DNA of 64,000 nt from an uncultured Kordiimonas sp. (GTDB lineage: Bacteria; Pseudomonadota; Alphaproteobacteria; Sphingomonadales; Kordiimonadaceae). This document shows, one piece after another, positions 48,245 to 56,437 of this stretch; positions within the stretch are counted from its first letter, which is position 1; each line of letters begins with the position of its first letter. The notes below the pieces were generated by a model that made no database searches, was not told the DNA's origin, and was given only the letters and a program-made list of their open reading frames with translations. The position numbers and the translations under genes were made by a program. The stretch is from the NCBI GenBank assembly GCA_947500295.1, contig CANMRM010000001.1:1240001-1304000 (forward strand), in the 5' to 3' direction.

Positions 48245-48270
48245 GGTTCTCTCTAAAACTTGAGAGCCTG
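48245..48270. repeat. Direct repeat, left copy (matches 3' end of the ParB-like gene)
   Basis: An 18-base identical core (GGTTCTCTCTAAAACTTG) plus NGNGCCTG, 24 of 26 bases equal to 49817-49842. Read on the minus strand it spells Q-A-L-K-F-stop, the end of the ParB-like protein (Q-A-P-K-F-stop). Upstream of it that reading frame is closed within about 12 bases, so only the 3' tip is duplicated. Confidence 0.85.
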
Positions 48271-48284
48271 TGATGTCGGTCACA
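48269..48284. promoter_or_regulatory. Perfect CRP-type site upstream of the 484-residue protein gene
   Basis: TGTGATGTCGGTCACA fits TGTGA-N6-TCACA exactly. It lies 57 bases before the start codon at 48341. A TATCTAT at 48300-48306 could be the -10 box, which would centre the site about 35-40 bases before transcription start, a class II activator position. Which CRP/FNR-family protein would use it is unknown. Confidence 0.55.
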
Positions 48285-48340
48285 GACCTTAAGGCGGGCA
48301 GTATCTATGATCGCCGACAGGAAAACAGGGGAGATGCAGC

Positions 48341-49795
48341 ATGAATTTGGACGCGCTATTTGTTACCGCCTCATCTTACGCACCGGAGCAGATCAAATGT
48401 ATTTTCCAGAGGAAATGGATGTTCGACCAACTGGAGAATTATCTGGAAATTCTTCACGAAAGTTTTGACCCGGCGACCGGAGCTTCAGGTATATTCGGCA
48501 CCATCAATCCGGAAATCAGTGTTGGCATGAGGATATTGAAAAACAGCAATGGTCGTTTCTTTGACATTGCTGCAAGCCAAATGCTTGATCGCTTAATATT
48601 GCAGAATCTGTCCATAAGGGTTCTCATTTATGCCAGTGCAGACACCAGCGCCCACATCAACGAAGTGGATGTCGTCTTTGACGATATCGAAGTTGAGTAT
48701 GAAACCAGCAATTTTGGTGAAGAGGGAGAGCAGCTGGTGCTGCTCGTTAACGGGCCAGTTGAGCTGACAGGCACCAACCCCGGCGTGCCTGATCAGACGT
48801 TGATAGACACACATTTTGCTGGAGATGCAGCGAAGTATCAAAGATTTGAAGATACCGTCGTATTCAGCGGCAACATGGCTGAAATTGCCGTTGCAATTGT
48901 TGAATCAATCAAAAGCATCAATCTCTTTTCATCGCTGAAAAAATACAAGGTAGCGCAGCCTGCGGACATAGCGGTCAACAATGACGGTTACATATATGGT
49001 AGCGGCCTGGTACGGGAGGATACGCAGACGGTCTGCAACAAAACCGGCGGCTATACCGTCATCAGGCATGAGCGAAAACCCGCCGAAAACAACAATTATT
49101 CCGGAACACTTAGCAGCAGGTACCGGTTAAATGAAGGCTCTTTCGCCTATCAGCAACCCATCATAAACCCACTGTCGGTCGTCTATCTGCCGATCGAAAA
49201 AACGATCCAGAAGAGTGCCCGCCGGATCATCAGGAACTATCACTACAACTGGAGCGGCAGAAGAAGCGGTTTCGACATAAACGCCAATGCCGTCGCAGTT
49301 CCTGACGATCCGAACATGCCGCTGTCATACGAGGTTGGCAACGGATATGTCCGCTTTCGCGACATCAATTTCACCATCTCGGGCAAGCTCAGGGCCAGAA
49401 AGAAAATAGGATGCATCTATATCCACTACCGCAAGGACATCGAGGGTCATGTGAGGGTCAGGGAGCTCGATATGAGATTTGCGATCGTGAACGACAACGG
49501 CCGCTACAAGTTAATTGTTAAACCGCGGGTCAACATCGACACAAACGCCAATTTAACGCGCGGCGAAGGGATCGTTACTTGGATTTTGCAGGTTCTTATC
49601 TGGCAGAAACAGTGGTTTCTGGACAACAAGATCGAGAGGCAGATCAACGACCTTGAGTTTACCGTGCTCGACCTGAGCGAGCTCAATTACCAGCCGCCAA
49701 ACGGCTGGGGCTTCAGCACGGCCTTTGATCAGCAGAACATGGCAATCGGCCTAGTGGAGAGAAATCCGGAAGCGGAGATTCGCGACATAGACTGA
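48341..49795 (+). CDS. Hypothetical protein, 484 residues, no recognised domain
   Basis: I do not recognise a family. No signal peptide and no membrane span. The composition suggests mostly beta structure with alternating hydrophobic residues (LSIRVLIYASADTSAHINEVDVVFDDIEVEYE; VRFRDINFTISGKLRARKKIGCIYIHY; YKLIVKPRVNIDTNANLT), two predicted helical stretches, and a C-terminal WILQVLIWQKQWFLDNKIERQINDLEFTVLDLSELN. The gene is AT-richer than its neighbours. It sits alone between the two copies of a 26-base direct repeat and behind a CRP-type site. This suggests a transferred single-gene segment; its job is unknown. A strong ribosome site is not obvious (GGGGAGATGCAGC is the best). Confidence 0.8.
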   Translation: MNLDALFVTASSYAPEQIKCIFQRKWMFDQLENYLEILHESFDPATGASGIFGTINPEISVGMRILKNSNGRFFDIAASQMLDRLILQNLSIRVLIYASADTSAHINEVDVVFDDIEVEYETSNFGEEGEQLVLLVNGPVELTGTNPGVPDQTLIDTHFAGDAAKYQRFEDTVVFSGNMAEIAVAIVESIKSINLFSSLKKYKVAQPADIAVNNDGYIYGSGLVREDTQTVCNKTGGYTVIRHERKPAENNNYSGTLSSRYRLNEGSFAYQQPIINPLSVVYLPIEKTIQKSARRIIRNYHYNWSGRRSGFDINANAVAVPDDPNMPLSYEVGNGYVRFRDINFTISGKLRARKKIGCIYIHYRKDIEGHVRVRELDMRFAIVNDNGRYKLIVKPRVNIDTNANLTRGEGIVTWILQVLIWQKQWFLDNKIERQINDLEFTVLDLSELNYQPPNGWGFSTAFDQQNMAIGLVERNPEAEIRDID

Positions 49796-49816
49796 CCCTT
49801 TCGTCACCAACCTGCA

Positions 49817-49842
49817 GGTTCTCTCTAAAACTTGGGGGCCTG
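49817..49842. repeat. Direct repeat, right copy (contains the stop of the ParB-like gene)
   Basis: Matches 48245-48270 at 24 of 26 bases. It covers the last codons, the stop and 8 bases of 3' flank of the ParB-like gene. The two copies are 1572 bases apart and bracket the 484-residue protein gene. Confidence 0.85.
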
Positions 49843-50073
49843 CACAATATAGGCGCCGACCTCTGTCTCGCCAACGGCTTTGCTGGCTTCAAGCCGGTGA
49901 ATGCCCGCGATCAGGACAAAGCGCCCCTTGCCTTCCCGCACCCGGATGGGTTTTAGCTCATCGCCCTCGAGCATGGCCTCGATGGTGGCATCAAGCTTGT
50001 CCTGCTGCAGCTCCTTGCGCCGGGCCGTTGGCACGTAAATATCATCAATCTTTACTGTGACAACTTTCAGCAT
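49825..50073 (-). CDS. ParB/Srx-fold mini protein
   Basis: 82 residues from the ATG at 50073 (AGGAACC upstream); a longer reading to 50130 is unlikely. It is a lone ParB N-terminal domain: VKIDDIYVPTARRKELQQDKLDATIEAMLEG, then the core LKPIRVREGKGRFVLIAGIHRLEASKAVGETEVGAYIV, where GIHRLEASK matches the CTP-binding box GxxRxxA. There is no DNA-binding HTH, so it is not a partition ParB. Such mini proteins may be NTP-binding regulators or nucleases. No parA is adjacent. Its 3' end is duplicated 1.6 kb away. Confidence 0.82.
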   Translation of the reverse strand: MLKVVTVKIDDIYVPTARRKELQQDKLDATIEAMLEGDELKPIRVREGKGRFVLIAGIHRLEASKAVGETEVGAYIVQAPKF

Positions 50074-53038: not shown

Positions 53039-53091
53039 TCAGCCAGCCTTCTCATGCAGCGTGCAGGCGGGCGGAATGTCCCACGCTTCCC
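53039..53091 (-). pseudogene. 3' remnant of a SnoaL-like gene
   Basis: Minus-strand frame ends REAWDIPPACTLHEKAG-stop, matching RDAWDIPSAYTLHT near the end of the intact SnoaL-like protein at 53485-53913. The DNA match is 53055-53091 against 53513-53549, 34 of 37 bases. Nothing of the rest of the gene is recognisable upstream of it. Confidence 0.65.
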
Positions 53092-53166: not shown

Positions 53167-53406
53167 ATGAGCAAAGCCAGAGCGCGCGAGCGCAAGAAAA
53201 AGAGATTGGCCCAGTTGCGGGCCGCAAAGTCCGCCCCGGCAGCGACGCATGAAAAAGGCGAAGACCATACCCCCGCCGAGTTTGCAGAGCAAAAACACAG
53301 CCCGGGAAAATTTGACCCCAGATTAAATACCGGCGGTAAAAACCGCGGCGGCAAGAATATTCCGGGTGTGGCTGCCTCCACCCGGGGGGCTGCCCGGTCG
53401 GGCTAA
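53167..53406 (+). CDS. Small basic hypothetical protein
   Basis: 79 residues from the ATG at 53167, 8 bases after GAGAGGA. Very basic start (MSKARARERKKKRLAQLRAAK), Gly/Lys/Asn-rich end (GKFDPRLNTGGKNRGGKNIPGVAASTRGAARSG). No membrane span. It looks like a nucleic-acid-binding or ribosome-associated small protein, but I recognise no family. It lies between a 3' remnant of a SnoaL-like gene and the intact copy. Base composition does not differ from the surroundings. Confidence 0.65.
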   Translation: MSKARARERKKKRLAQLRAAKSAPAATHEKGEDHTPAEFAEQKHSPGKFDPRLNTGGKNRGGKNIPGVAASTRGAARSG

Positions 53407-53484: not shown

Positions 53485-53913
53485 TTATGGGCCCCGTGTG
53501 TGCCCCGGTGTGTGCAGCGTGTAGGCGGACGGAATGTCCCACGCGTCCCGCACGCGGCCATTCACAATGCGCCACACAACCACCACGTCTACGGCTACCT
53601 CCTGGCCTGACAGATCGGGCTGCCCGGGCATGTCAGGCAGCGTCATGCTGTTGATCGTGTGCACGACCACCAGTTCGTCACCCACCGGCGTGGCGGACTG
53701 CGGGTTGACCCGGAAAGTGCCCTTCGTTTTTTCCATGATTGTCGTGAAGAACTGCCGCACACCGTCCAGGCCGATATAGTCCCCCTGCATGTCAGGCAGG
53801 TTGGGGTTGAAAAACCGGAAGACTACATTCTCTGCCATCACCTCCGGCCACCCGGCGGGGCTCGCAGGGTCAAACCGTTTTAAAACCGCAATGTTCGGGT
53901 GCTCGTCTGCCAT
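53485..53913 (-). CDS. SnoaL-like / NTF2-superfamily protein
   Basis: 142 residues from the ATG at 53913, which follows AGGAGG by 6 bases; the open frame up to 54111 has no such site. The alpha+beta cone fold of SnoaL/NTF2-like proteins fits: AVLKRFDPASPAGWPEVMAENVVFRFFNPNLP, YIGLDGVRQFFTTIMEKTKGTFRVNPQSATPVGDELVVVHTINSMTL, VVWRIVNGRVRDAWDIPSAY. Members are small-molecule isomerases, cyclases or hydrolases, or binding proteins. A piece of its 3' end is duplicated at 53055-53091. Confidence 0.82.
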   Translation of the reverse strand: MADEHPNIAVLKRFDPASPAGWPEVMAENVVFRFFNPNLPDMQGDYIGLDGVRQFFTTIMEKTKGTFRVNPQSATPVGDELVVVHTINSMTLPDMPGQPDLSGQEVAVDVVVVWRIVNGRVRDAWDIPSAYTLHTPGHTRGP

Positions 53914-53922
53914 ACTGGGCCT

Positions 53923-53951
53923 CCTGCCAGTGGGGGTGGTGTTGCTGGCAG
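53923..53951. repeat. CTGCCAG/CTGGCAG inverted repeat
   Basis: Seven-base perfect arms around a 15-base centre, just upstream of the SnoaL-like gene. The 53914-54136 gap holds nothing else I can support. It could be an operator or a weak hairpin. Confidence 0.35.
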
Positions 53952-54136
53952 CAACCATAGCAGGGTGGGCAATCACTCCCTTGATGGCGGTCAAGCAGAT
54001 GGGAATTTGGCGTTTTCTGCTGGCTTCGACTATCATGGCGGGACAGGTTTCCGGTATCCATGAGCTATCAGCAATAATGATACTTGCGGTCAGGCGAAGG
54101 TGTCGCCGCATACCTCAAGATAAAAGGAAACACAGC

Positions 54137-54798: not shown

Positions 54799-55059
54799 TT
54801 TGAACGCTCGCCCTTCGTCATCGCCTATGTTTTGGCGATTAGCAACGGCATGTGTGAGGCTTGCGATCAAGCCGCCGCTTTTAAAAAGAAAGACGGTGAG
54901 CCTTTTCTAGAAGTTCATCATGTAAAATTCTTGGTGGAGGGCGGGCCGGATACCATCGACAATGCAGTAGCTTTGTGCCCCAATTGCCGTCGCGCGTGCC
55001 ATCAAGCGGAGATTATAGCGTACTTAATCGAGAAGATCATAAGATTAAACGCTTATTGA
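54799..55059 (+). pseudogene. HNH endonuclease C-terminal fragment
   Basis: The frame reads FERSPFVIAYVLAISNGMCEACDQAAAF, then PFLEVHHVKFLVEGGPDTIDNAVALCPNCRRACH, a full HNH core (CxxC, HH, N, CPNC, H). It normally forms the C-terminal third of a larger endonuclease. Upstream the frame is open to the end of the previous gene but shows no start codon with a ribosome site and no recognisable N-terminal domain. It is therefore most likely a decayed remnant; expression from an internal ATG (54850) would cut into the motif. Confidence 0.7.
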
Positions 55060-55181
55060 TCGGCATCGCCAAGCCAGCTGAGTTTTCATAGAAATGCATT
55101 GTGAGCGGTCTTGCAAACGTCTGCAAGCAATTGTCTGAGCAAATTACGTTGGACGCGATTCTTTTGTAATGCTATATGAAA

Positions 55182-55206
55182 GCGGCGAAGTAATTAACTT
55201 CGCCGC
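55182..55206 (-). terminator. Rho-independent terminator for the 20-residue gene
   Basis: GCGGCGAAGT and ACTTCGCCGC form a perfect 10-base stem with a 5-base loop. On the minus strand it is followed by TTTCATAT, on the plus strand by AATCTC, so it is oriented to stop minus-strand transcription coming from 55366. A second, wobble-rich hairpin that favours the plus strand is at 55239-55279. Confidence 0.65.
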
Positions 55207-55238
55207 AATCTCTCGTTTTAGTGAATTGATTGCCGATT

Positions 55239-55279
55239 AAGGGTCGCTTTCTTAGCTTTGCACGCGGGAAGTGGCCCTT
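55239..55279 (+). terminator. Possible plus-strand terminator hairpin
   Basis: AAGGGTCGCTTTC can pair over 13 positions (three G-U) with GGAAGTGGCCCTT, followed by TCTATTT. It could stop transcripts leaving the HNH remnant. On the minus strand three positions become mismatches. Between 55060 and 55280 only this hairpin and the one at 55182 are seen. Confidence 0.45.
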
Positions 55280-55280
55280 T

Positions 55281-55343
55281 CTATTTATCAGAGCCCAAAC
55301 CGCCGATCAGCAAAACGGTAGGGCTTTCCACTCTTCTAGTCAT
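55281..55343 (-). CDS. Micro-gene encoding a 20-residue peptide
   Basis: The reading frame MTRRVESPTVLLIGGLGSDK is preceded by AAAGGAGG at an ideal 7-base spacing. Upstream on the same strand are TTGACC (55397-55402), an 18-base spacer and TATAAG (55373-55378). Downstream is a strong hairpin with a short T-run (55182-55206). The whole unit would be a transcript of about 190 bases. It is divergent from the 317-residue gene at 55484 and shares its -10/leader/SD motif. The peptide has a basic start and a hydrophobic middle. It might be a toxin-like or leader peptide, or the RNA may be the active product; no homolog is known to me. Confidence 0.5.
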   Translation of the reverse strand: MTRRVESPTVLLIGGLGSDK

Positions 55344-55372
55344 TTCTGACCCTCCTTTAGTTTGTTACAACC

Positions 55373-55402
55373 CTTATACCTTTCTGTAGCCCCTTAGGTC
55401 AA
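55373..55402 (-). promoter_or_regulatory. Sigma-70 promoter of the micro-gene
   Basis: Minus strand: TTGACC, 18-base spacer, TATAAG, with transcription expected near 55366. The AGGTATAAGG..AAGGAGGG block that follows is mirrored in the divergent promoter at 55431-55459. Confidence 0.6.
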
Positions 55403-55430
55403 CGAAATATTCAAAGAAAACGGCTATAAC

Positions 55431-55459
55431 TTGCGAATAAGGTTAATTTGAGGTATAAG
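55431..55459 (+). promoter_or_regulatory. Sigma-70 promoter of the winged-helix-like gene
   Basis: TTGCGA, 17-base spacer, TATAAG. Transcription would start near 55466, leaving a leader of under 20 bases that is almost filled by AAGGAGGG (55469-55476). Inverted similarity to the micro-gene promoter suggests joint control. Confidence 0.6.
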
Positions 55460-55483
55460 GCATGAGTTAAGGAGGGCTGATTC

Positions 55484-56437
55484 ATGAATAGCCAAGAAAA
55501 TAATACTGAAAAATCAAAGGTTAAGCGGTTTCGCAGTCCACCGTATCCTGCATTTGACTTAGATAAAGCGGTTCAGCTCTGTATTTTACTTCAGGGCGAG
55601 GCCCATCATCACGAAGTTGGAATTGATGTTGTCGCGGCAGCATTCAAAATGGAGTCGCTGGGTGGCAAAGTTTGGCGGCAGGTTGCGGCGCTAATACAGT
55701 ATGGTTTGTTGACTGACAGTGGCTCTGGGAAATCTCGAAAATTTAAACTTACAGATGTTGCAAAGCGGCTAGTTCATGATACGGATAATAGTTCGGAAAA
55801 ACGAAAAAAAGCGCTAGAGGTGGCGGCTCTTAACCCAATGATCCATCAAGAGCTTTATAGCCGATATGGTGCTGCCACCGGCCTTTCCAATTCTGTTATG
55901 AAAGCTCATCTAACAATAGAGCGTGAGGAGGCTGGGGAGGCCCCTTACAGCCCCTCAGCCGCGGAAGATGTCATAAGTACCTATCGATCTACTTTGGTTT
56001 ATGCTGGTATCTCTGATGCGCGCGCCTTAGACGATGGAAATGAGGATAAGGGTGGGGATACAGGTCTCGATCGTGCTGGTGAAGAAGTTACAGGAGGTCA
56101 ATCTACCCCCAAGGCAAAAATTGGTGATTATATCCAGTGGACATCGGGCGGGGCTGACCAGTTTGTTTCTCCAAAGAAAGTGGAATGGGTTTCGCCAAAC
56201 CACGATTATGTTCGTGTCTTTGGTAACCCAACAGGTATCGAAATGTCTGAAGTAACTGTGGTAGAATTGCCCGTGGTCAGTCCTCAAACCCCTACAGAAG
56301 GTAGCAATGCACCTCCATTTACGGTTTATCAAGTCGGTAATCGTTTACAGATTACAGCTGATGTCGATGCGGCTGGGCTTAAAAAACTGAAGAAGTTGTT
56401 GGAAAAGTACGAGGAAATCTTAGAGTTGTTAAATTGA
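55484..56437 (+). CDS. Hypothetical protein with winged-helix-like N-terminus and C-terminal coiled coil
   Basis: 317 residues, ATG 8 bases after AAGGAGG. Residues about 25-105 read like a winged helix (FDLDKAVQLCILLQGEAHHHEVGIDVVAAAFKM, KVWRQVAALIQYGLLTDSGSGKSRKFKLTDVAKRLV). A linker and a helical region follow (to about 185), then a low-complexity acidic stretch, a beta-rich segment (IGDYIQWTSGGADQFVSPKKVEWVS..DYVRVFG) and a C-terminal helix ITADVDAAGLKKLKKLLEKYEEILELL. I do not recognise the family. AT-rich, unlike neighbours to the right. Could regulate itself and the divergent 20-residue gene. Confidence 0.75.
   Translation: MNSQENNTEKSKVKRFRSPPYPAFDLDKAVQLCILLQGEAHHHEVGIDVVAAAFKMESLGGKVWRQVAALIQYGLLTDSGSGKSRKFKLTDVAKRLVHDTDNSSEKRKKALEVAALNPMIHQELYSRYGAATGLSNSVMKAHLTIEREEAGEAPYSPSAAEDVISTYRSTLVYAGISDARALDDGNEDKGGDTGLDRAGEEVTGGQSTPKAKIGDYIQWTSGGADQFVSPKKVEWVSPNHDYVRVFGNPTGIEMSEVTVVELPVVSPQTPTEGSNAPPFTVYQVGNRLQITADVDAAGLKKLKKLLEKYEEILELLN

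Follow-up and report, generated by a model that had tools for sequence, protein, structure and literature searches.

The ParB-like gene, its repeated 3' end and the gene between the copies

The window analyzed, a stretch of 64,000 nucleotides from the genome of an uncultured Kordiimonas sp., contains a ParB-like gene on the minus strand (49825-50073), the product of which matches only the ParB_N domain (Pfam, E = 1.3e-4). The protein has 82 amino acids if translation starts at position 50073, as in the orthologues; the longest open reading frame reaches 50130. Orthologues of 82 amino acids, ending in QA(P/Q/R)KF-stop, were found in nine other members of the genus and in one other genus of the family. 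Genomic context analysis revealed that this ParB_N-only gene, present in about half of the genus, has a different neighbourhood in nearly every species (window 49825-50073, loci L005-L014), and thus the gene may itself be mobile. In one species (G004) it is located near rpsP and rimM.

The last 18 nucleotides of the gene, stop codon included, together with the 8 nucleotides that follow (49817-49842, minus strand; proximal tip), are repeated in the same orientation at 48245-48270 (minus strand; distal or displaced tip). Direct comparison confirmed the 26-base repeat reported in a sequence-only reading of this DNA: the copies are identical at 24 of 26 positions, share a perfect core of 18 nucleotides (GGTTCTCTCTAAAACTTG) and are spaced by 1,572 bases. 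In the orientation of the ParB-like gene, the right copy reads CAGGCCCCCAAGTTTTAGAGAGAACC and the left one reads CAGGCTCTCAAGTTTTAGAGAGAACC, each consisting of five codons (QAPKF in the gene, QALKF in the displaced tip), a stop codon and 8 nucleotides. That reading had taken a genome-wide scattering of the repeat as evidence against an insertion; the core, with up to two mismatches permitted, was found at just these two sites across the 4.27-Mb genome. The number of 24/26 direct pairs expected by chance is approximately 0.0003 per 64-kb window for copies within 5 kb, and 0.01 for copies within 6 kb on the 1.66-Mb contig. No ParB similarity was found further upstream of the distal tip in the same frame. 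A remnant of a ParB paralogue was considered and rejected. No tRNA or Rfam feature was found near the ParB locus, and a promoter and terminator scan of the locus was uninformative.

The two tips delimit a segment of 1,546 bp (48271-49816, plus strand), whose sole open reading frame (48341-49795, plus strand) is convergent with the ParB-like gene and encodes a protein of 484 amino acids. All 18 remaining genomes of the genus lack this gene, and no relative has a second copy of its own ParB tip; the presence of both copies and the gene in relatives, arranged alike over a long evolutionary distance, would, according to the earlier reading, have spoken against an insertion, and these comparisons thus came out in favour of that reading. 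The gene had also been described as AT-rich, and its GC content is indeed lower than that of the other genes of the window (49.1% against approximately 57%), but neither its GC3 (0.61) nor its codon adaptation departs by more than one standard deviation from those genes, so that composition is weak evidence of a foreign origin. Searches of Pfam, NCBIfam, PHROGs and PADLOC assigned the protein to no family, and no transposase family was detected in the open reading frame. Likewise, no homologues were found in PDB sequences, in samples of the genus and the order, in a 398-genome sample of the phylum, or in GTDB species contigs, plasmids, phages and viral contigs; a single weak match at order level fell in a 184-amino acid acetyltransferase-like open reading frame and was set aside. 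Single-sequence structure prediction of the protein gave a mean pLDDT of 29.

When the window was searched for near-identical direct repeats no more than 5 kb apart, with a minimum of 23 matching bases in 26, one further pair emerged, located about 3 kb from the ParB pair and identical at 34 of 37 positions. The proximal tip of this pair (53513-53549, minus strand) falls within the 3' portion of a SnoaL-like gene (53485-54111, minus strand; Pfam SnoaL_2, E = 6.9e-10), whose end past the repeat is different, and the distal copy (53055-53091, minus strand) reads EAWDIPPACTLHEKAG-stop. A small gene of 79 amino acids, with a homologue in the sister species G018, is located between the two tips (53167-53406, plus strand). 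The region 54832-56437 of the window is AT-rich (44% GC) and contains an HNH-like fragment and a 317-amino acid gene with no Pfam match and a GC3 of 0.38; it is probably a recent acquisition.

Displaced gene tips on the contig and in sister species

Copies of gene tips were searched within 8 kb for gene 3' ends, 5' ends and gene middles, and in inverted orientation, using mechanically called open reading frames from 1.66 Mb of the chromosome (39% of the genome) and from parts of the relatives. Neighbouring paralogues were removed, and matches due to paralogous operons (e.g., contig 312-319 kb and 348-360 kb) were removed or discounted. Besides the ParB-like gene, six to seven further genes of the contig, including one open reading frame of doubtful reality, have their 3' tip copied downstream. 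These tip pairs belong, besides the SnoaL-like gene (34/37), to lepA (129/155 bases matching; passengers, an HTH protein and a CAAX-type protease), tlpA (88/104 and others; a kinase-like protein and others), rimO (40/41; an RTX repeat protein), a nitrilase gene (50/61; an epimerase), a TonB-dependent receptor gene (27/29; a DUF418 protein) and the doubtful open reading frame (32/40). In every case on the contig the order was intact gene, passenger and displaced tip, the passengers being mostly one or two unrelated genes, the first of which is convergent with the target in six cases. All the repeats bar that of the SnoaL-like gene end at the stop codon or only a few bases from it (+9, -1, -2, 0, +5, 0 and +8 relative to the stop; SnoaL, -28). 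No inverted pairs were found at the same threshold on the scanned contig, while the mid-gene and 5'-end matches there were weak, doubtful or derived from paralogous operons. The ParB case, the one instance noticed in the sequence-only reading, is real but not alone; the pattern is genome-wide and its second instance lies 3 kb away.

Tip pairs were also found in sister species, at surE in G014, at a gene of 450 amino acids in G011, at an 80-amino acid-type gene in G018 and at an RND pump gene in G012, with matches at 226 of 248 bases and a repeat that continues through the transcription terminator. In the latter genome, a 703-amino acid passenger is located between two copies of the intrinsic terminator (loci L168-L187 joined, ~213180-213450 and 215700-215990). 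Three species have the footprint at the lepA end, each with passengers of its own, namely the HTH protein and protease in the present genome, a LysR-type gene and an aldo-keto reductase in G018, and a 330-amino acid gene in G003; the start of the repeat differs among these species (-154, -48 and -38), and no copy of the lepA tip was found in the eight further species whose lepA end could be read. In G017, a mirror case was observed at a 5' end, where the first 71 nucleotides of a gene are repeated upstream around a gene of 246 amino acids (L048, 15421-15490 and 16689-17867), indicating that the process is not strictly confined to 3' ends. In a control of 450 kb from Escherichia coli, the only direct matches of the scan were an Rhs-associated tip (yibJ) and one REP-like short repeat downstream of fadA; this control is small (P = 0.08-0.15 at the genus rate), and a difference in rate is not proven by 450 kb.

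Relatives were also compared for empty sites. In G018, the rimO end is continuous from -38 to +36 and aligns with the distal tip of the present genome and on into its flank (+1020 to +1094, 83%). The same downstream gene follows the rimO site in both genomes and G013 agrees, giving an empty site that is nearly base-precise in two relatives. Since G018 and G013 match the present genome from the distal tip onward, the distal tip is the native end. In accordance with this, the C-terminus of RimO reads WDW in the relatives (the draft genome G014 has a shifted end) and in the distal copy, while that of the gene in the present genome reads WNW, so that the proximal tip is the new one. The proposal that a gene had been inserted at a 3' end, with this end regenerated and the old one displaced, is therefore supported at rimO almost to the base. 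The sequence-only reading had suggested looking for such an empty site at the ParB-like gene itself, where it was found at the gene level and not at the base level: in G013 a gap of 140 bp separates the ParB-like gene from the CoxL gene downstream, and the part of this gap next to CoxL matches the present genome (57/82), in which three genes intervene.

The distance between tlpA and the GST gene is 10-41 nucleotides in five species and 37 kb in the present genome, where at least five displaced tlpA tips with differing stop codons lie between the two genes (tlpA tips at contig positions 795679, 796720, 798611, 799764, 802279 and 811577). Several of these tips have intact-looking C-termini (FEALKNGEV, FEALKKGEI) and others are decayed. 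The whole 37-kb accretion that separates tlpA from GST, its ancestral neighbour (contig C1, 794209-832036; loci L093, L114 and L115) is composed of small modules, gave no integrase match and looks like an archive ordered by arrival.

Origin of the 484-residue gene

It is fairly probable that the 484-residue gene was inserted singly at the 3' end of the ParB-like gene, together with an imported tip, and entered by RecA-type or one-sided homologous recombination. The incoming DNA would have carried the passenger gene adjoining a copy of the 3' tip of the target gene, and would have undergone recombination at the resident tip. Entry would most likely have been as a circle through a single RecA-type crossover, or else through homologous recombination at the tip combined with illegitimate joining at the opposite end. 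The new tip would complete the resident gene, with nothing broken, and the old tip would end up beyond the passenger; like events would have occurred at many gene ends in the genus, and repeatedly at tlpA and lepA. We infer that the ParB case arose as at the other loci, with a tip that was imported and not copied in place and with no dedicated recombinase, the ParB pair being placed in this class by its anatomy and not by a base-level empty site of its own. At 26 bp, the ParB repeat ranks last in the set in both length and strength, and comes close to the minimum for RecA recombination. A comparable outcome was described in E. coli, where part of the lacZ end (109-950 bp where sequenced) was present in duplicate in 56 of 60 integrants obtained with homology at one end, which was explained by the linear DNA having circularised and undergone a single RecA-dependent crossover (PMC3240628).

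The distribution of the differences between proximal and distal tips bears on whether the tips were imported. In 15 tip pairs, not all of them independent, the differences at codon positions 1, 2 and 3 numbered 29, 44 and 91 (P = 5e-9 against equal shares), and those at the RND pump tip numbered 2, 2 and 14. This third-position excess and the differing stop codons of the tlpA tips support, and do not prove, that the tips came with the insert; such an excess would be expected if they derived from functional genes that had diverged. Part of the excess could come from later synonymous change in the resident gene and, given the identity of 40/41, the rimO tips may have been made by local copying. 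No donor locus or circle was seen. The wider proposal that the genus has a regular integrase-free acquisition of single genes, with 3' tips as shared attachment sites, tip-plus-gene circles passing between species and stacking in order of arrival behind favoured genes, is doubtful.

Two classes of mobile element were rejected as the source of the footprint. Integron gene cassettes share attC sites and have an adjacent IntI; each locus described here has its own gene-derived repeat, with no integrase match near the loci. Insertion sequences and transposons have a transposase, terminal inverted repeats and a short target duplication; the ParB segment contains a single open reading frame with no transposase family, between repeats that are direct and gene-derived. 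Site-specific integration, with the tips as att sites and an integrase that acted in trans or was lost (leaving CIME-like single-gene remnants or a tandem accretion), is an unlikely origin. It would account for the regenerated 3' ends, the displaced native end, the right borders at the stop codon and the repeated accretion at one gene end seen at tlpA, and the ssrA islands of Dehalococcoides, in which many modules use one gene end, are comparable (PMC3146451). However, each target sequence is different, so that many integrases would be needed, and scans covering the whole genome showed that every locus of the contig is more than 55 kb away from its sole tyrosine integrase match (PF00589) and about 50 kb or more away from its sole resolvase match (PF00239). 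In addition, no inverted core or arms above the level of shuffled sequences and no core common to the tips were detected, no mobility families were found among the scanned passenger proteins, and the lepA repeat has a variable start instead of a fixed crossover core. The statement of the sequence-only reading that no integrase is present thus holds near every locus on the contig, and its minimal cassette with a regenerated gene end was right in outline, while the site-specific integration that it envisaged at the ParB end is disfavoured by the lack of a nearby recombinase and of a shared or inverted core, and by the lepA repeat starts.

Insertion with a long target duplication and no imported tip, in which a staggered break at the gene end is filled in around the insert, is rather improbable. 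It agrees with the direct duplications of 26-250 bp that bracket the insert, with the empty site in relatives and with the near identity of the rimO tips, and the footprint is the same as that described for restriction genes of Helicobacter pylori (Nobusato et al., 2000, as cited in PMC1643837 and PMC4978471); nevertheless, the tip differences are mostly at third positions, the tlpA tips have different stop codons and intact-looking C-termini, and, selection apart, nothing in that model would place the borders at the stop codon. A tandem duplication of the gene and its neighbour, followed by a loss that left the 3' remnant of the second copy, would yield short gene-end remnants beside an intact gene and is possible for the SnoaL pair, whose 79-amino acid neighbour has a homologue in G018. 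As a general explanation it is very improbable, since 5' remnants would be expected as often as 3' remnants, and it is contradicted at rimO, where relatives lack the cargo and the distal tip is followed by the native downstream gene. The ParB pair, being the weakest, with 26 nucleotides and with copies placed before the cargo start and after the cargo stop, might also have arisen by chance or be a shared regulatory element or terminator with no connection to the other loci, but the low chance expectation in the window, the occurrence of the core only twice in the genome and an anatomy identical to that of the stronger cases make this extremely improbable.

The entry of single genes without mobility functions into genomes is rarely visible. 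Based on the footprint at many genes of this genome and of sister species and on the uninterrupted rimO site in relatives, the footprint is real and recurrent and appears to reflect the integrase-free addition of single genes behind existing genes. Each entry leaves a readable scar, with the old gene tip on one side and the new one on the other. If this reading is true, the scars order the acquisitions and mark the added genes, and ordinary gene ends can serve as landing sites with no dedicated enzyme. The tip scan is simple and can be applied to any genome.

Comparison with known systems

The modules described here resemble CIMEs and tandem accretion elements in being bounded by copies of gene 3' ends and stacked at one site, and the 3' end regenerated with the displaced end at the far side, as in CIMEs, was found in the rimO alignment and in the anatomy of the ParB locus. 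Unlike those elements, which use one integrase-specific site, the present cases involve many unrelated gene ends and no integrase; neither a recombinase nearby nor a fixed core with inverted arms was found. The insertion with long target duplication of H. pylori (Nobusato et al., 2000, as cited in PMC1643837 and PMC4978471) shares with them passengers bracketed by a duplicated target and an empty site in a related strain, and this combination was found at rimO and, at the gene level only, at ParB. The H. pylori events are reported to be often associated with restriction-modification genes, whereas the cargo is varied here, and the present cases differ from them in the bias toward 3' ends, the reuse of the same end and the signs of an imported tip.

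A duplicated gene end flanking the inserted DNA is also produced by homology-facilitated illegitimate recombination and by the single crossover with one-end homology in E. coli (109-950 bp; PMC3240628). The latter is a laboratory reaction with a selected plasmid (PMC3240628), whereas the events described here are natural and recurrent, with mostly shorter tips. The arrays of old tips at Rhs loci have been attributed to displacement by recombination through circular intermediates (2009, PMC2935791), and a related model was presented for the T6SS immunity arrays of Vibrio (Kirchberger et al., 2017, PMC5361080). The present cases are Rhs-like in that an incoming end would replace the 3' end, old tips accumulate downstream in arrays and no integrase is invoked; a series of homologous displaced 3' tips following a single intact gene, typical of Rhs, was found at tlpA. 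They differ from Rhs in that the targets are ordinary genes (rimO, lepA, tlpA and the ParB-like gene) and not polymorphic toxins, and in that the tips encode nearly the same C-terminus, the gain being a separate passenger gene.
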